Shown here: positions 8,492 to 24,925 of the stretch, piece by piece
Layout of the letters: each line of letters begins with the position of its first letter
Numbering within the stretch: position 1 is the stretch's first letter
Assembly: GCA_021805245.1 (NCBI GenBank)
Contig: JAJZFS010000029.1
Location: 1 to 58,848, forward strand
Reading direction: 5' to 3'
Length of the DNA: 58,848 nt
Source: Pseudomonadota bacterium
Lineage (GTDB): Bacteria > Pseudomonadota > Alphaproteobacteria > Micavibrionales > UBA2020
Notes under the pieces: model-generated
The model's input: only the letters and a program-made list of their open reading frames with translations
Databases searched by the model: none
Told to the model about the DNA's origin: nothing
Translations under genes and position numbers: made by a program

Positions 8492-8581
8492 GGAAGGGTG
8501 GCCGAGTGGTTTAAGGCGCTCGCCTGGAAAGCGGGTATACTGTAACAGGTATCGTGAGTTCGAATCTCATCCCTTCCGCCA
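8492..8581 (+). tRNA. tRNA-Ser (anticodon GGA)
   Basis: The acceptor arms GGAAGGG (8492-8498) and CCCTTCC (8571-8577) pair fully and are followed by an encoded GCCA end. The anticodon loop is CTGGAAA, with GGA in the middle. A long variable arm and the T-loop sequence GTTCGAATC are present, as expected for a class II serine tRNA. The gene lies immediately upstream of a P4-type integrase. Genes of this type are common attachment sites for such elements, so its 3' half is the probable attL. Confidence 0.97.
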
Positions 8582-8590
8582 TTTTATTCT

Positions 8591-8620
8591 TCCTAAAAAA
8601 TCCTAAATCATCCTAAAGAA
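8591..8620 (+). repeat. Three 10-bp-phased TCCTAAA repeats next to the attachment site
   Basis: Three consecutive decamers each start with TCCTAAA, at 8591, 8601 and 8611. The spacing is one helical turn, so a protein could bind all copies on the same DNA face. They lie between the tRNA 3' end and the integrase, where arm-type integrase or excisionase sites are expected. The inverted repeat before the alpA-like gene contains the same half-site (ATCCTAAA), hinting that the AlpA-like protein binds here. Confidence 0.6.
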
Positions 8621-8651: not shown

Positions 8652-8762
8652 CGATCCTATACGTTCCACTGGGATTCTTTGCAATCCGGCGGAGATGTGG
8701 GTATATTGAGGGGTAGATTTTGAATAAATTTGATTGTGGATATGAAAGGCGGAATCGAACCC

Positions 8763-9983
8763 ATGCTGACAGAGTTGGCCATCAAGCACGCGAAACCGAA
8801 AGATAAGGCTTATAAAATCAGCGATTCGGGCGGTCTGCACATAGAAATCACGCCATCCGGCGGAAAGCTCTGGCGCTGGCGTTACCGTTTCAATGGCAAG
8901 GCACAACTGCTGGCCTTGGGGAAATATCCCGCCGTGAGCCTTGCGGAAGCCCGCAGAAAACGCGATGAAGCGCGGGCGCTAGTTGGAGAAGGAAAGCATC
9001 CCACCCGCGAGAAGCGCGCCGAGAAGTTGCGCCGCATGGCCGAGGGGGAAAACACCTTCGAGAAGCTGACGCGGAAATGGCTTGAATTGAAAAAGGCGGG
9101 TTTGAATGAAAAATACCGCATGCAAAATCTTTCCCGCATGGAACAGCTTGTATTCCCGATGATCGGCAGTCTGCCTGTCACGGAAATCACCATTCCCGAT
9201 ATTGTGCGCGTGGTTGAAAAAATCAGCAATCGCGGCACGGTCGAAACCGCCAAGCGCATGAAACAGCTTATCAGCCAGATTTTCCGCTATGCCTGTTACC
9301 GTGGTTTATGCCAGCACAATCCCGCCGCCGACTTGCGGGGTATTCTTCCGACTGTCGAACGGAAGCATTTCGCAAGTCTGCCCTTGGCGGAGGTTCCGGC
9401 TTTGCTGAAAGCGATAGAGGATTATAACGGTGAAAATATATCAAAGGCGGCCATGAAATTGCTGGCGTTGACGTTCGTCCGTACCGGAGAACTGATCGGC
9501 GCAAAATGGGAAGAAATCGATTGGCAGCGCGAGGAATGGCATATTCCCGCCGAACGCATGAAGAAAAAACGCCCGCATATCGTGCCGTTGTCAAAACAGG
9601 CTTTGGCTATTCTCAAAGAATTACAAGAGCAGACGGGTGAAAAGCCGTTTGTTTTTTACAGCTTGCGCAGTAAATCCCGTCATATCAGTAATGGCGTTGT
9701 GCTTATGGCCATGCAGCGCATGGGGTATCATGGAAAAATGACTGGTCACGGCTTCCGCAGCCTTGCCAGCACTATTTTAAATGAAAAAGGGTATCCGCCG
9801 GACGTGATTGAACGCCAGCTTGCCCATGCCGACGATGACAAAATCCGCGCCGCATACAACCGCGCCGAATATCTACCGGAGCGTAAAAAGATGATGCAGG
9901 ACTATGCAGATATTCTGGAGGCTATGGCCGCAGGAAAAAATATTATTGCCGGAAAATTTGGAAAAACAGGCACAAAAAAATGA
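8763..9983 (+). CDS. P4-type tyrosine integrase
   Basis: Site-specific recombinase that inserts and excises genomic islands at tRNA genes. About 406 residues. The N-terminal DUF4102 arm-binding domain (LTELAIKHAKP, SGGLHIEITPSG, LALGKYPAVSLAEAR) is followed by a core-binding domain and a catalytic domain. Visible catalytic elements are the first Arg in FVRTGEL, the HGFRS box, the LAHAD His and the tyrosine in RAAYNRAEY. The family usually begins just before the LT motif, so I chose the ATG at 8763 over two earlier in-frame starts. The gene sits 180 bases from the tRNA-Ser, in the same direction. It overlaps the next gene by four bases (ATGA). The protein appears intact. Confidence 0.95.
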   Translation: MLTELAIKHAKPKDKAYKISDSGGLHIEITPSGGKLWRWRYRFNGKAQLLALGKYPAVSLAEARRKRDEARALVGEGKHPTREKRAEKLRRMAEGENTFEKLTRKWLELKKAGLNEKYRMQNLSRMEQLVFPMIGSLPVTEITIPDIVRVVEKISNRGTVETAKRMKQLISQIFRYACYRGLCQHNPAADLRGILPTVERKHFASLPLAEVPALLKAIEDYNGENISKAAMKLLALTFVRTGELIGAKWEEIDWQREEWHIPAERMKKKRPHIVPLSKQALAILKELQEQTGEKPFVFYSLRSKSRHISNGVVLMAMQRMGYHGKMTGHGFRSLASTILNEKGYPPDVIERQLAHADDDKIRAAYNRAEYLPERKKMMQDYADILEAMAAGKNIIAGKFGKTGTKK

Positions 9984-11056
9984 AAAAATCCGAAAAAAAT
10001 AAAAATTTAACGGTTAAATCAACGGCCAAAACCGTTAAGCCAACGGCTAGGAGAACGGCTAAACCAACTGTTCAACGGTCTAAACCAACGGTTAAGCGAA
10101 CCGTTAAGAAAACGTCATTTCAACGGTTGCCGAACGGTTCCTTAACGGTTCAATCAACCGTTCAAACCGCTAAAAAGCCTGAATCCGGCGGAAACCCGCT
10201 GGCGGCTTTTGAATATGTCCGCGAACATCTGGCCGGAATTGAAGAAAAAAGCGGATTTGAAGCCTATCAGGCCTTCAGGGATTTTATTGTGCCGTTATTT
10301 ATTGCGCCGGAAAAAGCGCGGCTGTTTGTGCAGGATGATGCGCATTATCGTTTTATCGGGGATTTTCAACCGTTCGATCCGGCTTATATCGATAATATGG
10401 TGCTTTGCCTGCTTATCAAAATAAATGCGCCGCATATTTATGAGCAGACAAAGCCCATCATTGATAGAAACGTCAGGCCAAAAAAGGCCAATGAAGGGTT
10501 TAATCACCTTTACCGTGAATGCGCCGGATTTTTGGTTTTATTGCTACAACATTACGAGAAAATTACACGCAGGCAGGGTTTGCGGCTGGCGGCGCATCTT
10601 ACAAAATATTCTGAATCTGTAATTGCAAAGCCATTTGACCGCATGGATACCATGCGTGAAAAACTAAAAGACGAGTTGCCGCCGCCATTGGTTCTGGCGG
10701 CGCTGTACGGAACTTTGTCTAAAAAGGGAGCTAATCCCGATACTTTAGAGCCGTTCAAAAAGAAAAGCGTCCGTTCGCAGGGCGAAATGCAAAAGACGAT
10801 CAACGGTTACTGGCGGTTCACTGAAAAAGTATTGCGCCATTACCAAGACGAAATCCTGCAATATCAGAAAAAGAATCCTTTAATTCTGTTTACACGCATT
10901 GCGGCGGATTTGGGTTTTACTTTTCCTCTGGCAGAGAAAGACATGAAAAAGCCGCCTGCTTTAACCGTTTTTATAGTGCTATGTTTCGCGCTTGTGGCGG
11001 CAGTCATGCCGGAAGCGGTTCATGAATTCGATAAAAGACTAAGGCAAATGGCATAA
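9980..11056 (+). CDS. Unknown island protein with repeat-encoded N-terminus and C-terminal hydrophobic anchor
   Basis: About 358 residues, no family recognised. The first 60 residues are a low-complexity Thr/Val/Lys/Pro region encoded by eight AACGGTT/AACCGTT repeats, ending in FQRLPNGS. A helical, charged central domain begins around GGNPLAAFEYVREHL and carries no motif I can name. Near the end is one hydrophobic segment (LTVFIVLCFALVAAVMP), suggesting tail anchoring in the inner membrane. The ATGA overlap with the integrase indicates translational coupling. A QRLPNGS motif recurs in the small protein at 11480-11749. It may be an accessory or maintenance protein of the element, but that is only a guess. 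Confidence 0.7.
   Translation: MKKSEKNKNLTVKSTAKTVKPTARRTAKPTVQRSKPTVKRTVKKTSFQRLPNGSLTVQSTVQTAKKPESGGNPLAAFEYVREHLAGIEEKSGFEAYQAFRDFIVPLFIAPEKARLFVQDDAHYRFIGDFQPFDPAYIDNMVLCLLIKINAPHIYEQTKPIIDRNVRPKKANEGFNHLYRECAGFLVLLLQHYEKITRRQGLRLAAHLTKYSESVIAKPFDRMDTMREKLKDELPPPLVLAALYGTLSKKGANPDTLEPFKKKSVRSQGEMQKTINGYWRFTEKVLRHYQDEILQYQKKNPLILFTRIAADLGFTFPLAEKDMKKPPALTVFIVLCFALVAAVMPEAVHEFDKRLRQMA
10009..10162. repeat. Cluster of eight AACGGTT/AACCGTT heptamers
   Basis: Exact copies start at 10009, 10030 (inverted), 10087, 10099 (inverted), 10122, 10133, 10144 and 10156 (inverted), with near-matches between them (AACGGCT, AACGGTC, AACTGTT). All are inside the coding sequence of the gene at 9980. Further exact copies occur at 10802, 10963 (inverted), 11379, 11550, 11561 and 11584. 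Random expectation for this heptamer in 1.6 kb, both orientations counted, is well below one. The density looks like an iteron or protein-binding array embedded in coding DNA. Confidence 0.8.
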
Positions 11057-11124
11057 CAACCTGATTATTTTCATTTAAGCATGTTATTCTTTTTTACCCA
11101 AAGTGTGGGAAACCGGAAGCCGTC

Positions 11125-11160
11125 ATATCCTGAAAGCGTGATTAACAACTTTTAGGATAT
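11125..11160. promoter_or_regulatory. Inverted repeat, probable operator of the alpA-like gene
   Basis: ATATCCTGAAAG (11125-11136) and CTTTTAGGATAT (11149-11160) are a 12-bp inverted repeat with one mismatch and a 12-base gap. The right arm ends five bases before the ATG at 11166. The half-site ATCCTAAA also occurs in the phased triplet at 8591-8620. Autoregulation by the AlpA-like protein is the simplest reading. This is inferred, not shown. Confidence 0.55.
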
Positions 11161-11165
11161 GCACT

Positions 11166-11387
11166 ATGAACATAGACAACGCAAATAAAGAACGATTCTT
11201 AAGGCTGGCGGATGTGAAAACCCGTACGGGCTTAAGCCGTAGTACGATCTATTTGAACATAGCCAATGGGCTGTTTCCCCGTCCTGTCAGTCTGGGGTTG
11301 CGTTCTGTCGGCTGGCTCGAAAGCGAGATTGACGCATGGATGATGCAACGCATCCAACAAAGCCGATCCGCAGATTTTAACGGTTAA
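11166..11387 (+). CDS. AlpA-family transcriptional regulator
   Basis: A 73-residue protein with a MerR-like helix-turn-helix. The opening FLRLADVKTRTGLSRSTIY and the later WLESEIDAWM match the AlpA/Phage_AlpA family. These are small DNA-binding proteins that control integrase or excisionase genes on P4-like islands. Length is typical. It has its own upstream region with a strong inverted repeat (11125-11160). Its gene ends with an AACGGTT repeat (11379). Confidence 0.88.
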   Translation: MNIDNANKERFLRLADVKTRTGLSRSTIYLNIANGLFPRPVSLGLRSVGWLESEIDAWMMQRIQQSRSADFNG

Positions 11388-11406
11388 TATTGAAAGGAAA
11401 AATATC

Positions 11407-11511
11407 ATGATGAACGGCATTAATAACGGCATTCAACAAACGGTAAAACAACCCGCACTATTGGCGGGGCTGGCTTTATATGCCCTTTTCTCAGGCGGCA
11501 AAAAAGGATAA
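11407..11511 (+). CDS. Small hydrophobic protein (34 aa), overlaps next ORF
   Basis: Starts MMNGINNGIQQTV, with a GAAAGGA purine stretch a few bases upstream. A short hydrophobic segment (LLAGLALYALF) is followed by SGGKKG and a stop. The stop falls inside the next reading frame, which is offset by one base. The join occurs at a run of six A bases (about 11500-11505). It may be a genuine tiny membrane peptide or the N-terminus of the following protein cut off by an indel. The hydrophobic segment would give that protein a membrane anchor. Confidence 0.45.
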   Translation: MMNGINNGIQQTVKQPALLAGLALYALFSGGKKG

Positions 11512-11749
11512 AAAACAAACATTACCAGCGGCTGAAAAAACGCCCGTGCAACGGTTGCCGAACGGTTCCGCAACGGCCAAGGCAACGGTTCAACCAATCG
11601 CAAATAAGGGCAAAATGGACGTTTCCGATCCATATGAATCCATGAGCGAAGAAGAACTGCAAAAAGAACTGATCCGGCAAGCTATGTCCGAGCTCGGCAA
11701 ACGCAGTGCGGCGGTAAGGATGAAGAAGAAAGCGGAGGTTAAAATGTAG
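11480..11749 (+). CDS. Unknown small island protein sharing the QRLPNGS repeat region
   Basis: An 89-residue frame with a Lys/Ala/Thr-rich first half, then a charged helix (SMSEEELQKELIRQAM) and a basic tail. The segment VQRLPNGSATAKATVQ resembles FQRLPNGSLTVQSTVQ in the protein at 9980. At DNA level 11549-11569 is identical to 10121-10141. The ATG at 11480 has no good ribosome site, so translation could instead begin at 11407 and shift frame at the A run near 11500. The family is unknown. Confidence 0.5.
   Translation: MPFSQAAKKDKKQTLPAAEKTPVQRLPNGSATAKATVQPIANKGKMDVSDPYESMSEEELQKELIRQAMSELGKRSAAVRMKKKAEVKM
11549..11590 (+). repeat. Second AACGGTT cluster (three copies), duplicate of 10121 block
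   Basis: Exact AACGGTT at 11550, 11561 and 11584, with AACGGCC between. The 21 bases from 11549 match 10121-10141 exactly, although the surrounding coding sequences are unrelated. This suggests copying of a short repeat unit between genes of the island. Confidence 0.75.
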
Positions 11750-12246: not shown

Positions 12247-12356
12247 TCCCTTAAAAACCAGAAGCCGCATGGCGTATCATTCCCGTCAGAAACGGGTATG
12301 CCCACGTACGGCTTTCCTCACCATCGCTTTTATTGGTATTTATATGGGGGTTACGC

Positions 12357-13553
12357 ATGCGAATGCTCACCACTGTCAGGGCCGTCTTTATAATCGTCAT
12401 ACTAATGGCGATGGGGAATCATATGGTTTCCGCCGCAACCGTTAGAACGCCCGCTAGGCAGGCGGAAGGTAAAATCCTTTATTACCGTGCTCCCATGGGC
12501 GGCGCGACGTCGCCAGTGCCCATGAAGGATAGCATGGGCATGGCATATGTGCCGGTTTATGCTGCCGGTGCCGGAGATGCGCAGGATACCGTGACGTTGA
12601 GCGCCGGACGCATCCAGCAACTGGGCGTGCAAACAGCTTTTGCTGTACGCCGCGATCTTGCGTGGACTATTCATGCAGTCGGCACGGTGCAGCCCGACGA
12701 AACCCGCGAGAGTGTCGTGTCGCCGCGCTTCAGCGGTTGGATCGAGAAGCTCACCGTCGATGCAACGGGCATGACGGTCAAAAAAGGTGGACCGTTGTTT
12801 ACTTTTTACAGCCCGGAACTCACAAAAATCGAGGCGGAATATCCTTTCACGCGGGGCGGTCATGCGCCGAACGGCACCATTGAAAAACTGCGAAGTCTCG
12901 GCGCACCGCCCGCTGAAATAGAGCGCCTAAAAGATAAGCATACGGTCAGCACGCATATGATGTTCACCGCGCTCGCCGATGGCACCGTGCTGAAGAAAAT
13001 AGCGATCGAAGGCATGGAGTTCACCCCTGGCATGACGCTATACAGCATCACCGACCTGTCGCAAGTGTGGGTGATTGCCGATGTTTATGAGCGTGATTTG
13101 TCCCGCGTTGCCATCGGTCAGCCCGTAGAAATTACCTTTACGGCTTTTCCCGGCAAAGTATTCAAGGGGAAAGTCAGCTTCATTTATCCGGATATCGATA
13201 AGCAGACGCGCACAGCGCGGGTGCGGATCGTGCTGCCCAATTCGGACGGTCTGCTGAAGCTCGACATGTACGCGAGTGTGGATATTTCTGATACATCAGA
13301 GAAAGCCGTATTGACGGTTCCGACCTCCGCCGTGATCGACGGTGGTGTGCGAAAAACGGTGTTGCTGGCCCTCGGCGGCGGGCGTTTCCTGCCGCGTGAA
13401 GTGACCACCGGCTTGCGCGCCCACGGTCAGGTCGTTATCCTAAGCGGATTAAAGGCAGGCGATCGCGTCGTCACCTCTGCCAACTTCCTGATCGATTCCG
13501 AGAGCAATCTGCGCGCCGCCTTGCAGCAATTTGCGCCGGGAGGAAAAAAATGA
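12357..13553 (+). CDS. cusB: CusB-like periplasmic adaptor of Cu(I)/Ag(I) efflux
   Basis: Membrane fusion protein that links the inner-membrane pump to the outer-membrane channel and passes on metal. About 398 residues. After a signal segment, residues 40-68 follow the metal-binding pattern of E. coli CusB (ILxYxxPM ... SxMxMxxVPxY). Met47, Met60 and Met62 match its Cu ligands, and there are no Cys. HlyD-type beta-barrel and lipoyl half-motifs follow (VVSPRFSGWIEKL, MFTALADGTVLKK). The ATG at 12357 is chosen because GGGGG lies six bases upstream; an earlier TTG is less likely. It overlaps cusA by four bases. Confidence 0.92.
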   Translation: MRMLTTVRAVFIIVILMAMGNHMVSAATVRTPARQAEGKILYYRAPMGGATSPVPMKDSMGMAYVPVYAAGAGDAQDTVTLSAGRIQQLGVQTAFAVRRDLAWTIHAVGTVQPDETRESVVSPRFSGWIEKLTVDATGMTVKKGGPLFTFYSPELTKIEAEYPFTRGGHAPNGTIEKLRSLGAPPAEIERLKDKHTVSTHMMFTALADGTVLKKIAIEGMEFTPGMTLYSITDLSQVWVIADVYERDLSRVAIGQPVEITFTAFPGKVFKGKVSFIYPDIDKQTRTARVRIVLPNSDGLLKLDMYASVDISDTSEKAVLTVPTSAVIDGGVRKTVLLALGGGRFLPREVTTGLRAHGQVVILSGLKAGDRVVTSANFLIDSESNLRAALQQFAPGGKK

Positions 13554-16500
13554 TCACGCACATCATTCGCTGGTCGGTGCGGAACCGCTTTTTGGTTCTG
13601 CTGGCGACCTTTTTCATTATAGTAGCAGGCATATATTCCTTGCGGCATATCCCGCTTGACGCTATTCCCGACCTTTCCGACACGCAGGTGATCGTCTGGA
13701 CGAAGTATCCCGGGCAGGCGCCGCAGGTGGTTGAAGATCAGGTAACCTATCCGCTGACCAGCGCGCTGTTGAACGTGCCGGGAGCCGTGACTGTACGCGG
13801 CCTTTCGATGTTCGGTAATTCCTTCATCTATATCATCTTCAAGGACGGTACGGATATATACTGGGCACGTAGCCGCGTGCTGGAATATCTTAACTCCATC
13901 GGTAGCCGCCTGCCTCAGGGCATCACGCCGGCGCTAGGGCCGGATGCCACGGGTGTGGGCTGGATCTACGAATACATTTTGCAATCGGCCGGTAAAAACC
14001 TCGCCGAACTGCGCAGCCTGCAAGACTGGTACCTGCGCTACGGCTTGTCACGGGCGGAGGGTGTGTCGGAAGTCGCGAGTGTCGGCGGCTTCGTTAAGCA
14101 GTATCAGGTCGTTGTCGATCCGCGCAAATTGCAGGCATACGGCATTCCACTGGCGGGGGTGATCCGAGCCATCCGCAACAGCAACATAGACGTCGGCGGG
14201 CGCGTCATCGAGATGACGGAGCGGGAATACCTCGTGCAGGGACAAGGCTATTTGCGCGGCGTTAGCGACCTGAAAGACATCGCCTTGCGTAGCCATAACG
14301 GCACGCCTGTGCTGCTTGGCAATGTGGCGCAAGTCCGGATCGGCCCCGATCAACGGCGTGGCCTTGCCGAATACAACGGCACCGGAGAAGTTGTCGGCGG
14401 GATTGTCCTGCAGCGCGTTGGAGAGAACACGCTCGACGTCATCAACAGCGTCAAGGCTCAACTGAAGAAACTGGAGACGGGATTGCCGAAAGGGGTCACG
14501 GTCAAGGCCGTTTACGACCGTTCAGAGCTTATCCTGCGTGCCGTGCATAACCTCAGCCATACGCTGATCGAAGAAAGCGTCATCGTCGCGCTGGTGTGTT
14601 TCCTGTTTCTGCTGCATGCAAGAAGCGCACTGGTCGCCATTTTCGTTTTGCCGGTCGGGGTGTTGCTCGCCTTCATCATCATGTATGCGATCGGCCTCGG
14701 TTCCAACATCATGAGCCTCGGCGGCATCGCCATCGCCATCGGCACCATGGTGGATGCCGCCATCGTGATGATCGAAAACGCCCACAAGCATCTGGAGCGC
14801 GCGGAAAACGATGATGCCCACACGCGCCTGACGGTGCTGGTCGAGGCCGCCTGTGAGGTCGGGCCTTCGCTGTTTTTCAGCCTGCTTATCATCACGGTAT
14901 CGCTAATGCCCATCTTTACGCTGCAAGCGCAGGAAGGGCGGCTGTTCCGGCCTTTGGCGCTGACTAAAACCTTCACAATGGGGTCGGCGGCGCTGCTCTC
15001 GATAACGCTGGTGCCCGCACTGATGACGGTGCTGATCCGCGGACGCATCGCGCCGGAAAGCCGCAACCCGGTCAACCGCATCCTGATTAACCTCTATCGG
15101 CCGGTCATCGCCGCCGTTCTCAGGTTTCGCAAAACCACAGTCTTTCTTGCCCTGCTGGTGCTGGCGGCGTCGGTTTATCCGGCATTGCATATCGGTTCGG
15201 AGTTCATGCCTGAACTCAAGGAAGGCACGCTGCTTTACATGCCAACGACACTGCCGGGCATTTCGATCACCGAAGCCGCAAGCCTGTTGCAAATGGAAGA
15301 CCGTATCATCAAATCCTTCCCCGAAGTCAAATCCGTCTTCGGCAAGGCAGGTCATGCGGATACAGCGACCGATCCGTCGCCGCTGTCAATGGCCGAAACT
15401 ATCATCAATCTTAAACCGCAAAGCCAATGGCCGAGGGGTATGACGACGGGCAAGCTCATCAACGCCATGAACAAGGCGTTGCAGTTCCCCGGCGTCACCA
15501 ATGCCTGGACGCAGCCCATCCGCGGACGAACCGACATGCTCTCGACCGGCATTCGCACACCGCTTGGCATCAAGATATTCGGCAAAAATCTCGCGCAGAT
15601 CGAAAAAGTCGGGAAGGAAATAGAAAACGCCGTTCATGATATTCCCGGGACCGCCAGCGTCTATGCCGAACGGGTGACCGGCGGTTATTATCTCAACATC
15701 GACCCCGACCGCGCCGCGCTGGCACGCTACGGCATCACGATAGGCGAGGTGCAGAACGTGATTGCCTCGGCGCTCGGCGGCATGAAAGTGACCACTGTCG
15801 TTGAAGGTAATGAGCGTTATCCCGTCAATGTGCGCTATCCGCGCGATTTCCGCAGCGATCCGCAGGCCATTGCTGAAAACATTCTCGTGCCCATCGCGTC
15901 CGGCGGCATGGTGCCGCTGGGGCAGGTGGCGCGTATTTCATTGTCGTCGGGGCCGCAGATGATCCAGACGGAAAATGCGCAACTGGTCGGTTATGTCTAT
16001 ATTGACATCCATGGTCGCGATCTCGGCAGTTATGTCGCAGCTGCCCAAAAAGCGGTGCGCGAAAAGGTCAAGCTCTCGACGGGCGTGCATCTGGAATGGA
16101 GCGGACAGTTCAAGTACATGCAACGCGCCAAGGCACGACTGGAAGTCATCGTGCCGCTGACGCTGGTCATTATTTTCACGATGCTCTATCTCAATTTCGG
16201 ACGCATGACGGAAGCGCTGATCGTGTTCCTGTCTTTGCCCTTCTCGCTGGTAGGCGGGTTGTGGCTGATGTACTGGCTGGGTTTTAATTTCAGCGTGGCG
16301 GGCGCGGTCGGCTTTATCGCTCTTGCCGGACTCGCCACACAAACCGGCATCATCATGCTGGTCTACCTCGGCAACGCCTTCGAGAGAGTAAGGACGGAAC
16401 GGACGGCTGAAGGCAGGGCGGTCACGCTGGACGATGTGCATGCCGCCGTGGTCGCCGGAACAGTCGAGCGTGTGCGCCCGCTGATGATGACGGTGTGCGC

Positions 16501-16669
16501 GATCATGGCAGGCCTTTTGCCGATTATGTGGAACCATGGCACCGGCGCGGATGTGATGCAGCGCATCGTCGTTCCAATGCTGGGCGGCATCGTTTCCTCG
16601 AGCATCCTGACGCTAATGGTGATTCCGGCGGTCTACGCCTTGGTGAAGCAGAAAACGGAGGCCAAATGA
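13550..16669 (+). CDS. cusA: CusA-like RND Cu(I)/Ag(I) efflux pump
   Basis: Inner-membrane proton-driven pump of the heavy-metal RND class, 1039 residues and intact. The TM4 motif GIAIAIGTMVDAAIVMIENA contains the proton-relay Asp. Met564, Met614 and Met663 lie exactly nine residues before the E. coli CusA metal triad (Met573, 623, 672). This is strong evidence for monovalent copper or silver as substrate, not zinc or cobalt. RTDMLSTGIRTPLGIK is the conserved block around the last Met. The start overlaps the cusB stop (ATGA) and the stop overlaps the cusC start, giving a tightly coupled operon. Confidence 0.96.
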   Translation: MITHIIRWSVRNRFLVLLATFFIIVAGIYSLRHIPLDAIPDLSDTQVIVWTKYPGQAPQVVEDQVTYPLTSALLNVPGAVTVRGLSMFGNSFIYIIFKDGTDIYWARSRVLEYLNSIGSRLPQGITPALGPDATGVGWIYEYILQSAGKNLAELRSLQDWYLRYGLSRAEGVSEVASVGGFVKQYQVVVDPRKLQAYGIPLAGVIRAIRNSNIDVGGRVIEMTEREYLVQGQGYLRGVSDLKDIALRSHNGTPVLLGNVAQVRIGPDQRRGLAEYNGTGEVVGGIVLQRVGENTLDVINSVKAQLKKLETGLPKGVTVKAVYDRSELILRAVHNLSHTLIEESVIVALVCFLFLLHARSALVAIFVLPVGVLLAFIIMYAIGLGSNIMSLGGIAIAIGTMVDAAIVMIENAHKHLERAENDDAHTRLTVLVEAACEVGPSLFFSLLIITVSLMPIFTLQAQEGRLFRPLALTKTFTMGSAALLSITLVPALMTVLIRGRIAPESRNPVNRILINLYRPVIAAVLRFRKTTVFLALLVLAASVYPALHIGSEFMPELKEGTLLYMPTTLPGISITEAASLLQMEDRIIKSFPEVKSVFGKAGHADTATDPSPLSMAETIINLKPQSQWPRGMTTGKLINAMNKALQFPGVTNAWTQPIRGRTDMLSTGIRTPLGIKIFGKNLAQIEKVGKEIENAVHDIPGTASVYAERVTGGYYLNIDPDRAALARYGITIGEVQNVIASALGGMKVTTVVEGNERYPVNVRYPRDFRSDPQAIAENILVPIASGGMVPLGQVARISLSSGPQMIQTENAQLVGYVYIDIHGRDLGSYVAAAQKAVREKVKLSTGVHLEWSGQFKYMQRAKARLEVIVPLTLVIIFTMLYLNFGRMTEALIVFLSLPFSLVGGLWLMYWLGFNFSVAGAVGFIALAGLATQTGIIMLVYLGNAFERVRTERTAEGRAVTLDDVHAAVVAGTVERVRPLMMTVCAIMAGLLPIMWNHGTGADVMQRIVVPMLGGIVSSSILTLMVIPAVYALVKQKTEAK

Positions 16670-18072
16670 TGAAGAGAGTGTTGTCTCTTGCGGTGTTGAC
16701 CGCCGTTATAGTCCTGACGGCCTGCACCGTCGGGCCGGACTACCACAGGCCGAAAGTCGAAACGCCAGCCTTTTATAAGGAAGCTTACGGTGCATGGCGT
16801 CAGGCCAGTCCGCAGGATGTGTTTCATCACGGCGCATGGTGGACGGTTTATAACGATTCCGTCCTGAACCGGCTAGAAAAACAGGTCGATGTTTCCAACC
16901 AGAAACTGAAAGCGGCGGAAGCCGCTTATCACGAAGCGCGCGCCATGGCGGCGGAAGCACATTCTTCACTTTTTCCCACGGCCGCCGCTGAAGGAGCCGT
17001 CGGAAAAATGCGCGGCACCATGCCACGCCCGACGGCGCCGGAAAGCCTTACCGTCGGCGGGAGTTGGGAACCCGATCTTTGGGGGCGCATCCACCGCGAA
17101 ATAGAAGGCAGCACAGCGCGTGCGCAAGCCAATGCTGCCGATCTCGCCGCCGCGCGGCTTTCGCTGCAGGCGGTGCTGGCGGTGGATTATTTTGATTTGC
17201 GTGCGCAAGATGAACTGAAGCAGTTATTGGAACGCATCGTCGAGACAGATAAAAAGTCCTTGCAAATCGTGCGCTATCAATACGACAGCGGCACAGGCAG
17301 TTCTGATGATGCTCTGCTGGCTGAAACACGCCTCGAAAATGCGCGCGCAAAAGCCATAAAAACCGGTGTCCGGCGCGCGCGCCTGCTGCATGCGATCGCC
17401 GTCCTCGTCGGAGATCCGCCTGCGGATTTTTTTCTTCCGCTGCGCCCGTATAACGGTTATGTGCCTGACATTCCGGCGGGTATACCATCATCCTTGCTGG
17501 AGCGCCGTCCGGACATAGCCGCAGCCGAGCGCATGGTGGCGGCAGCCAACGCGAAGATTGGTATTGCCACAGCGGCATGGTTTCCCGATATCACACTGTC
17601 GGCTTCCGCAGGTTATACCGACATGACGTTTGACAAGGTATTGCAAGCGCCTATGGGCTTCTGGGCGTTGGGCGCAGGGTTCACCGAAACTCTCTTCAAC
17701 GCCGGACGTCGGTCCGACCGCATCACGGCGGCAAAAGCGGGATTTGACCGCAGCGCCGCCATGTACCGCCAGACCGCGCTGACCGCGTTTCGGCAAGTCG
17801 AGGACGGCCTTTCATCACTACGTATTATAAGTCAGGCCTGTGACGAACAAAGTGCGGCCACTCGACACACATGGCGCATCGAGCAACTGGCGAAACGGCG
17901 GTACGAGAGCGGCACGGGTGACTACCGTAAAGAACTGAAGGCGAGGACAGTCTGGCTCAAGAATAAAATTGACCTGTTGAAACTGCGCCAAAGCCGTCTG
18001 GACGAGAGTGTTGCGCTTATTCGCGCTCTGGGCGGAGGGTGGAATGCATCACAGGTGACGAATGGAAAATAA
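16666..18072 (+). CDS. cusC: CusC-like outer-membrane efflux lipoprotein
   Basis: TolC-family channel of about 468 residues. The N-terminus MMKRVLSLAVLTAVIVLTAC is a lipoprotein signal with Cys20 as the predicted lipid anchor, followed by TVGPDYHRP, typical of the NodT/CusC group. Two OEP repeats are visible, the second with SSLLERRPDIAAAERMVAAA. It overlaps the end of cusA by four bases and completes a cusBAC set. CusF and a CusRS-type regulator are not present. The operon order B-A-C differs from the E. coli order C-F-B-A. Confidence 0.93.
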   Translation: MMKRVLSLAVLTAVIVLTACTVGPDYHRPKVETPAFYKEAYGAWRQASPQDVFHHGAWWTVYNDSVLNRLEKQVDVSNQKLKAAEAAYHEARAMAAEAHSSLFPTAAAEGAVGKMRGTMPRPTAPESLTVGGSWEPDLWGRIHREIEGSTARAQANAADLAAARLSLQAVLAVDYFDLRAQDELKQLLERIVETDKKSLQIVRYQYDSGTGSSDDALLAETRLENARAKAIKTGVRRARLLHAIAVLVGDPPADFFLPLRPYNGYVPDIPAGIPSSLLERRPDIAAAERMVAAANAKIGIATAAWFPDITLSASAGYTDMTFDKVLQAPMGFWALGAGFTETLFNAGRRSDRITAAKAGFDRSAAMYRQTALTAFRQVEDGLSSLRIISQACDEQSAATRHTWRIEQLAKRRYESGTGDYRKELKARTVWLKNKIDLLKLRQSRLDESVALIRALGGGWNASQVTNGK

Positions 18073-23733: not shown

Positions 23734-24435
23734 ATGAGCACCCGAAAAAAATTTCTGAGCGCTTTAGAGATCATTTTCTGTGCGGCGGCGCTGACAGCCG
23801 CAACGCTGTTCCCCGCTGCCATGTCATACGCTCAGCCAGCCGGTTCCGCACGCGCGGGCTCGCTTGGCACCAGCGGCGGCGTCGCGCAGCCGCAAGGCGC
23901 CGGGGCCGGCGGATCGACCGCGGCGCAGGGCAACGCCTTTTCAAATGGCAGCTCGTCGGGCCCCGGTCCCGTCAACCAGAACCGCTACGGCGGCAGAGCT
24001 GCAACAACCGACGACGGGACAGCCGACAATACCCTCACGCGTCTCCTCGATAAGAGCGAAAAACATTTGCCGGACACCCTCGCTCCCGAAAACGACTGGT
24101 GCGAAGATTACGACGCGCAAAAGCTGACCGGAAAAGCGGCTCTGTCCGGTGCGAATGGACGGCGGCTGATAGCGGCACAGCGTTACCTCGCCCCCGGCTT
24201 TGGCCAGAATGGGAATCCGTCCGAACTTTCTCTCCTTTCCAATTACCAGCAGGAACTGGCAAAACCGCGCCCCGATGCCGCGCTTGCCGGAACCTATATC
24301 GGCCTCGCTTCGGCAATCCCGCTGGACGAGCAGCGTCTGGTGGAGACCAACCGGCTTCTCTGCGTCACGGCAGCGCCTGCACACATGAAAAAAATCCTCA
24401 ATACGGCGCACGGCATATACACAAAGCATGAATAG
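23734..24435 (+). CDS. Exported protein of unknown function, first gene of Gly-rich operon
   Basis: About 233 residues. A signal peptide (about residues 1-33, ending SYAQPA) is followed by a Gly/Ser/Ala-rich linker. A folded domain from about residue 90 contains just two Cys (in DWCEDY and LLCVTA), which could form a disulfide in the periplasm. I know no family. It leads an operon of four exported proteins with gaps of about 16, 29 and 42 bases and a terminator after the last. The FNR-type box about 130 bases upstream suggests expression at low oxygen. Confidence 0.7.
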   Translation: MSTRKKFLSALEIIFCAAALTAATLFPAAMSYAQPAGSARAGSLGTSGGVAQPQGAGAGGSTAAQGNAFSNGSSSGPGPVNQNRYGGRAATTDDGTADNTLTRLLDKSEKHLPDTLAPENDWCEDYDAQKLTGKAALSGANGRRLIAAQRYLAPGFGQNGNPSELSLLSNYQQELAKPRPDAALAGTYIGLASAIPLDEQRLVETNRLLCVTAAPAHMKKILNTAHGIYTKHE

Positions 24436-24451
24436 TCGAAGGAACGGAAAA

Positions 24452-24925
24452 ATGAAAAAATTCTTAAAATCAGGCTGGAGACAATCCCTCATCATCGGCA
24501 GCGCCGTTTGCTTTTTGCTGACAGGCGGGGCGGTCTTTCATCTGTTCCCTGCTACAGGAAGCGGCCAGGCTTATGCCGCAAGCGGCAACGAAAGTAGTGG
24601 CGGGGGCGGCGGCCAAGGCGGCGGAAACGGCCAGCATGCGGGCGGCGGCGGGGGCGGCGGCCAAGGCGGCGGAAACGACCAGCATGCCGGCGGCGGCGGG
24701 CACGGCCCCAATCCCAACTGCCCGTATCAGGATCGTAGCGGCCGCGGCGGCTATGCCGGCAGCGGCCATGGCAAGGGCGGCCATAGCGGAGAGGACACGG
24801 GCAGCGATGCCGGCACCACAAGTGTGGACACAACCACCAGCGGCGGCAGCCCCGGCGGTGAAAACTTTGTTTGCGACCAGCCCGGCAGTTGGCACGCCAA
24901 CAACAAAATCTACCTCAATCACTAG
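24452..24925 (+). CDS. Exported Gly/His-rich low-complexity protein
   Basis: About 157 residues. The ATG at 24452 follows AAGGAACGG and is preferred to one eight codons earlier. A signal peptide ends near QAYA. The mature part carries two copies of a GGGQGGGN-QHAGGGG unit, then a Gly/His/Ser-rich stretch and a C-terminal segment with two Cys. Repeated Gln-His-Ala-Gly and Gly-His motifs may bind metal or make a flexible surface polymer. The composition resembles Gly-rich cell-surface or matrix proteins. Function is unknown. Confidence 0.65.
   Translation: MKKFLKSGWRQSLIIGSAVCFLLTGGAVFHLFPATGSGQAYAASGNESSGGGGGQGGGNGQHAGGGGGGGQGGGNDQHAGGGGHGPNPNCPYQDRSGRGGYAGSGHGKGGHSGEDTGSDAGTTSVDTTTSGGSPGGENFVCDQPGSWHANNKIYLNH

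Follow-up and report, generated by a model that had tools for sequence, protein, structure and literature searches.

Centromeres of the ParR/parC and omega/TubR types consist of tandem short sites spaced at about the helical repeat of DNA, which are noncoding and precede a par operon that includes a motor NTPase. Palindromic DNA that is tolerated in frame is known from the Rickettsia palindromic elements, which are inserted units of about 100-150 bp. In R388, the stbDR repeats are 9 bp long, read TTGCATCAT, are separated by 2-bp spacers (an 11-bp period) and surround a promoter; a single DNA-binding protein, StbA, secures inheritance without the StbB ATPase (PMC3098194). KfrA of RA3, a plasmid maintenance protein, has an operator of five 9-bp repeats (TGTATTGTA) at its own promoter (PMC7783346). 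The key components listed for P4 include neither arrays of the heptamer AACSGTT (S = G or C) nor the small gene described below (PMC8628076). We analysed a 58,848-nucleotide stretch of an alphaproteobacterial genome (contig JAJZFS010000029.1, hereafter the window), in which a mobile island next to a tRNA-Ser gene carries two arrays of this heptamer within coding sequence. These arrays are almost certainly DNA sites that have been selected as DNA, a conclusion for which all the evidence is comparative and drawn from sequences.

The window contains 21 heptamers, AACGGTT or AACCGTT, against 7.5 expected, with a maximum of 14 in 100 shuffles. Fifteen of them lie between positions 9980 and 11590 (at 10009, 10030, 10087, 10099, 10122, 10133, 10144, 10156, 10368, 10802, 10963, 11379, 11550, 11561, and 11584), where 0.2 would be expected. 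In 200 simulated windows, the densest 1611-bp stretch never held more than four heptamers, compared with these 15, and the densest 160-bp stretch never more than three, compared with eight observed. The initial annotation of this DNA had counted 14 heptamers; that number has to be raised by one, while the density far above chance stands. It had also placed eleven heptamers in two blocks and noted 21 bases common to 10121 and 11549, and both observations are accurate. The first block, array A (10009-10162), comprises eight exact heptamers at steps of 11-12 bp or multiples thereof, with degenerate sites between them, and occupies the N-terminal extension, of about 70 amino acids, of an open reading frame of unassigned function, ORF358 (9980-11056, forward strand). 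The second block, array B (11550-11590), comprises three exact heptamers and one degenerate copy (AACGGCC) in the linker of a small gene (11407-11749, forward strand). The 21-base module at 10121-10141 recurs exactly in array B. Degenerate copies such as AACGGCT and AACGGTC, among others, occupy gaps between exact sites. The host genome is not enriched: its 2.25 Mb contain 241 heptamers, whereas the reversed control pattern occurs 313 times. The density is thus local to the island, contrary to the equal density throughout the chromosome that the initial annotation had named as a refutation.

Synonymous codon choice indicates selection at the DNA level. In 16 repeat-carrying genes, 74 heptamers are observed, whereas a codon shuffle that keeps proteins and codon pools fixed gave 14.6 +/- 3.2, with a maximum of 29 in 2000 runs. 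In 11 small genes, AACSGTT is the top 7-mer, with 38 copies against 1.1 expected, and is present in all 11. The heptamers use all three reading frames (36, 23, and 15 copies), giving Thr-Val, Glu/Gln-Pro-Leu (or Gln-Arg-Leu), and Asn-Gly-Ser. In the frame in which either centre base encodes the same residues (Thr-Val), G and C are found in a ratio of 19:17; where C gives Pro instead of Arg, 18 copies have C and five have G; where G gives Gly instead of Arg, 12 have G and three have C. By these ratios, the coding need sets the orientation, to which the site itself is indifferent. The linkers do have TV, EPL, and NGS words in common, as would be expected if they were selected as peptides and the heptamers were a by-product of codon bias. 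This explanation has practically no probability left, as it is refuted by the synonymous shuffle and also conflicts with the use of three frames, the 11.5-bp phase, and the existence of noncoding and displaced copies.

With regard to the relatives, of which the named ones are metagenome-assembled genomes of Alphaproteobacteria, those of ORF358 or of the small gene are located near tRNA-Gly (twice), tRNA-Phe, tRNA-Ser, tRNA-Met, tRNA-Arg, and other genes. Some gene starts, and one gene truncated by a contig edge, are approximate (G112, G005:C22, L062). Array A has homologues in G005:C22, with 11 exact sites, and in G004, with nine exact sites in noncoding DNA: ORF358 has been lost in G004, and the open stretch has no start codon ahead of it, which leaves the array without a usable reading frame. 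With site columns defined in a third sequence for each of the three comparisons, these columns are 90-93% identical and the spacers 58-79% (p = 3e-5, 2e-6, and 0.058); in the two comparisons that involve G004, sites are 92-93% and spacers 58-64% identical. In G889, the sites occupy the 3'-terminal codons of the helicase gene that precedes the small gene, whose own linker is devoid of them. The heptamers are found wherever a coding linker or the tail of a gene can accommodate them, and they are kept across relatives while linker amino acids and spacers change. Codon shuffle, phase, and noncoding and displaced copies support the initial annotation's suggestion of DNA-level binding sites of a mobile island that are tolerated in frame.

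Its alternative suggestion, a selfish palindromic element inserted in genes as in Rickettsia, fared worse. Occasional copying of modules, whether by such an element or by simple tandem expansion, is suggested by the 21-base module and by an extra segment of about 24 bp in the array of G005:C22. However, no inserted unit of 100-150 bp or any larger unit is observed, the spacers of different families are unrelated, the phase and the site persist, and, in contrast to the Rickettsia elements, only phased sites of 7-11 bp are conserved and they are not dispersed in the genome. We consider this explanation extremely improbable.

Spacing and symmetry indicate what kind of protein may use these sites. 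Gap lengths from one site to the next are concentrated at 11-12, 21-24, and 34-36 bp; the best period is 11.5 bp (R = 0.73 in independent arrays), and none of 3000 random placements was as regular. As several of the arrays share descent, the spacing test was also run with the two closest relatives excluded. This spacing is out of codon phase, and the tandem recurrence of a short site about once per helical turn is a property that the arrays share with centromere-like arrays of the stbDR or parC type. The tolerated single-base variants are mirror images of each other: AACSGCT exceeds expectation 39-fold, and AGCSGTT does so 22-fold. In the heptamer, the central C and G are almost invariant, a preceding A and a following T are avoided, and the 11-bp consensus is about YBAACSGTTVR, with an indifferent centre base. 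Because the tolerated variants are palindromic, the pattern suggests that a symmetric dimer recognises the 11-bp site. Some sites at 11-bp spacing mimic the LexA box (GTTC-N7-GTTC), a candidate that was dropped, as many sites are without the flanking C.

Clustering of the heptamer is not specific by itself, because class-wide clusters are not commoner than the control: a scan for three clustered heptamers matched nine genomes of the class, fewer than the reversed control, and several of these matches were plain tandem repeats. Among 142 genomes of the order, the triplet pattern matched only these islands, and this absence from unrelated loci weighs against a selfish inserted element. Specificity rests on the 11.5-bp phase, the codon shuffle, and the gene association rather than on clustering alone. 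No published description of the heptamer or its arrays was found in the literature searched.

Some DNA-binding protein must read the arrays. Members of the gene family that accompanies them have 66-141 codons; in the encoded proteins, a variable linker joins a hydrophobic N-terminal segment to a near-invariant basic C-terminus (KEMIRQAMSELGKRSAAARRKK). The family is carried by 12 elements (the window, G004, G005 on contig C5, G010, G054, G112, G137, G351, G368, G415, G430, and G889), which span several alphaproteobacterial families, and by one IMG/VR contig. The small gene contains or adjoins a heptamer array in 12 elements. As the only gene family found beside arrays across intact elements, and one with an invariant basic helix, it provides the best candidate reader. 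In the structural model (mean predicted local distance difference test score, pLDDT, of 58), only the C-terminal helix is confident. Relatives of the small gene were found neither among PLSDB plasmids, which also lack relatives of ORF358, nor among INPHARED phages.

In the fuller elements, the small gene is the last of an operon encoding AlpA or an HTH_17 protein, a CHC2 primase, and a Toprim/AAA_25 helicase. This position could point to an iteron-type replication origin, whose sites would be bound by the initiator of the element and whose DNA would be opened beside the rep gene, and the AAA_25 helicase does possess a C-terminal helix-turn-helix (HTH). However, other elements with the small gene have a VapE-like or Prim-Pol/DUF3987 replicase, or none, and the heptamer remains the same throughout these unrelated replicases. 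The arrays of the window, G004, and G010 islands have no identified replicase beside them; a DnaA-box match occurs within 600 bp at only two of 16 arrays, and the arrays themselves are not AT-rich. An origin is thus unlikely, and replication, one of the roles that had been put forward for the repeats at the outset, has lost ground as the specific function.

Repression is another conceivable role: a host or island repressor would coat the array and silence island genes or autoregulate the small gene. The arrays lie inside transcribed regions and next to AlpA, and helically phased palindromes suit cooperative repressors. In the window, the gene for AlpA, a regulator or excisionase of the AlpA type (11166-11387, forward strand; Phage_AlpA, PF05930, Pfam E-value 2.3e-21), carries a heptamer at its stop codon (11379-11385, forward strand; DFNG*). 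G010 retains this heptamer but has the other centre base (AACCGTT, DFNR*). On the other hand, the arrays are in mid-gene and not in promoters, and the HTH_17 proteins vary between elements. The G169 island exhibits an AlpA 69% identical to that of the window, with the same recognition helix, yet it has no array: its integrase, ORF358 homologue, and AlpA are present, and the repeat-bearing N-terminal extension, the small gene, and the array are all absent. An operator or silencing array is improbable. The integrase, AlpA, and the replicative helicases all fit poorly as the reader; a host factor is possible.

The reading that we favour pairs AACSGTT with one specific DNA-binding protein in tRNA-integrated alphaproteobacterial elements. 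A symmetric dimer would bind each site, and neighbouring dimers would form a cooperative complex, aligned along the same side of the double helix. The binder would be the element's own small protein, with its hydrophobic, probably membrane, segment, its disordered linker, and its invariant basic C-terminal helix; the hydrophobic segment may tie the DNA to the membrane. The resulting complex would act as a centromere or membrane tether that holds or partitions the excised, replicating element, and it possibly also regulates the small gene. Judged from sequence, the chance that the small protein binds AACSGTT falls just short of even. The dedicated pair, the small protein as binder, and the centromere or tether taken together make up a tentative reading, somewhat below an even chance. 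A segregation or tethering role, which is argued by analogy with known centromeres, is plausible but remains on the doubtful side of even.

Several observations weigh against this reading. The small protein matches no Pfam, NCBIfam or PHROG family and exhibits no recognised DNA-binding fold, and profile searches of the PDB returned only chance matches, none of them informative for it. Its distribution is narrow, as the small gene was absent from 398 genomes of the phylum except the window's own. Of the scanned proteins, none near it was identified as a ParA or ParM partner. Arrays also occur without the gene: that of G005:C22 persists in a truncated island that lacks it, and G159 has two AACSGTT arrays with 12-bp steps, near short genes of unassigned function and without the small gene (L098 6321-6375 and L099 8493-8523). 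Moreover, the small gene of the window may be dead. It is split between two frames, the hydrophobic N-terminus starting at 11407 and the linker and C-terminal LQKELIRQAMSELGKRSAA helix being encoded in another frame at 11480-11749, whereas its relatives have one continuous frame. The split is located near an A-rich run at about 11501 and may be a frameshift mutation, an assembly error or a case of recoding.

The closest resemblance is to stbDR/StbA of R388, which likewise combines an array of short sites, a helical-turn period, and one small element-encoded protein, here a candidate by analogy. In contrast to stbDR, the AACSGTT arrays are palindromic and form part of coding linkers, and their candidate reader is of a membrane type without a recognised domain. 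ParR/parC and omega/TubR differ in that no par operon with a motor NTPase was identified here. A phased array with one dedicated protein is also reminiscent of the short-repeat operator of KfrA in RA3, and a further likeness to KfrA is observed in a circular plasmid of G069 (L100, G069:C21; 6356 bp, with a 99-bp end overlap), in which six exact AACSGTT heptamers, mostly in phase and in several frames, are found in a gene directly after the RPA replication gene. This gene encodes an HTH_17 domain, a linker, and a coiled coil, the same general plan as KfrA, whereas the island small protein has no HTH. The plasmid is possibly a second system using the same DNA site; five other RPA-type plasmids that were checked had no array and a single lone heptamer. 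The arrays described here are unusual in that their sites are embedded in sequence that encodes protein linkers, with a preference for the linker of the presumed binder. They could represent a new segregation or tethering system of integrative elements, in which the gene for a membrane-anchored binder would contain the centromere that this protein binds, or a neighbouring gene would do so if it is not tolerated there, and in which protein and site would travel as one gene of about 370 bp across unrelated replication modules. We regard this as a rather doubtful prospect.

The presumed attachment site of the island is a tRNA-Ser (GGA) gene (8492-8581, forward strand; ARAGORN), followed by TCCTAAA repeats (8583-8620, forward strand; period 10 at 8591-8617 by TRF) and by a P4-type tyrosine integrase gene (8730-9983, forward strand; Arm-DNA-bind_3, Phage_int_M, and Phage_integrase domains by Pfam and NCBIfam). 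As this adjacent integrase has an Arm-DNA-bind domain, the AACSGTT arrays might be arm-type sites. However, the TCCTAAA repeats, unrelated to AACSGTT, are probably the integrase arm-type sites, and similar TTCC(C/T)AA...CATCC repeats occupy the same place in the G005, G010, and G004 islands. A separate repeat family is therefore found in the expected position between tRNA and integrase in four islands, and the arrays are 1.4-6 kb away from the attachment and integrase region, up to about 6 kb from the integrase in other elements. Arm-type sites are hence a very unlikely explanation of the arrays. ORF358, with homologues in G005, G010, and G169, matches no Pfam, NCBIfam or PHROG family above the cut-off, and its AlphaFold2 model is poor (mean pLDDT of 35). 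Its core contains three lone heptamers, which are motif matches only (10368-10374, reverse strand; 10802-10808, forward strand; 10963-10969, reverse strand).

Downstream of the small gene, a CusB-like adaptor and a CusA/CzcA-family resistance-nodulation-division pump (12333-16669, by NCBIfam) are followed by an outer-membrane lipoprotein that clusters with a NodT-type protein (16666-18072); this efflux operon (12333-18072, forward strand) is probably cargo of the island. A direct repeat of the tRNA end, sought in the window as the right border, was not found. The window also contains a Gly-rich coding tandem repeat at 24599-24707 (48-bp period, 96% matches), in a gene overlapping 24428-24925. 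The islands resemble P4-like satellites in their tRNA-targeted integrase, AlpA, primase-helicase (in relatives), and defence cargo (PMC8628076). They differ in that P4 morphogenesis genes were not recognised in the islands inspected, where no dedicated search for the psu/delta/sid/epsilon/alpha set was made.

Diverse genes are found beside the small gene in the relatives. The G004 island encodes a type II CRISPR-Cas system (L007 580-4935 and 6027-6686; Cas9 of 1067 amino acids, Cas1, and Cas2), whose CRISPR array directly adjoins the small gene, and a CRISPR-like array is found at the corresponding position of the G010 island (downstream of the small gene in L006/L009). Large opposite-strand genes directly beside the small gene (L056 5968-9810, L053 5039-9169, L054 10182-13706, and L062 832-4335) look like defence cargo of SIR2/Dsr1-like, DUF4297-like, and KAP/PifA-like types. 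Weak matches to the small protein were also obtained in three contigs resembling tailless, membrane-containing phages (L061, G000:C102; L060, G005:C27; L047, G028:C1), one of which belongs to the window's own genome. These contigs encode a packaging-type ATPase, a candidate capsid protein, and many small membrane proteins; the matching proteins show a similar hydrophobic-linker-LGRKGAAKRWKK plan with a basic helix (MRELGRKGAAKRWKK), and heptamer arrays are absent.

The arrays are a clean case of a dense cis-acting DNA code imposed on protein-coding sequence, with a measurable imprint in the frame-dependent centre base, the codon choice, and the helical spacing. They point to an undescribed DNA-binding partner that is common to defence-carrying alphaproteobacterial mobile elements, the cargo of which includes type II CRISPR-Cas and SIR2/Dsr1-like, DUF4297-like, and KAP-type genes. 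The AACSGTT motif is a ready probe for both this protein and these elements. If the small protein is the partner, the small gene would amount to a maintenance module made up of a single gene that contains its own site.

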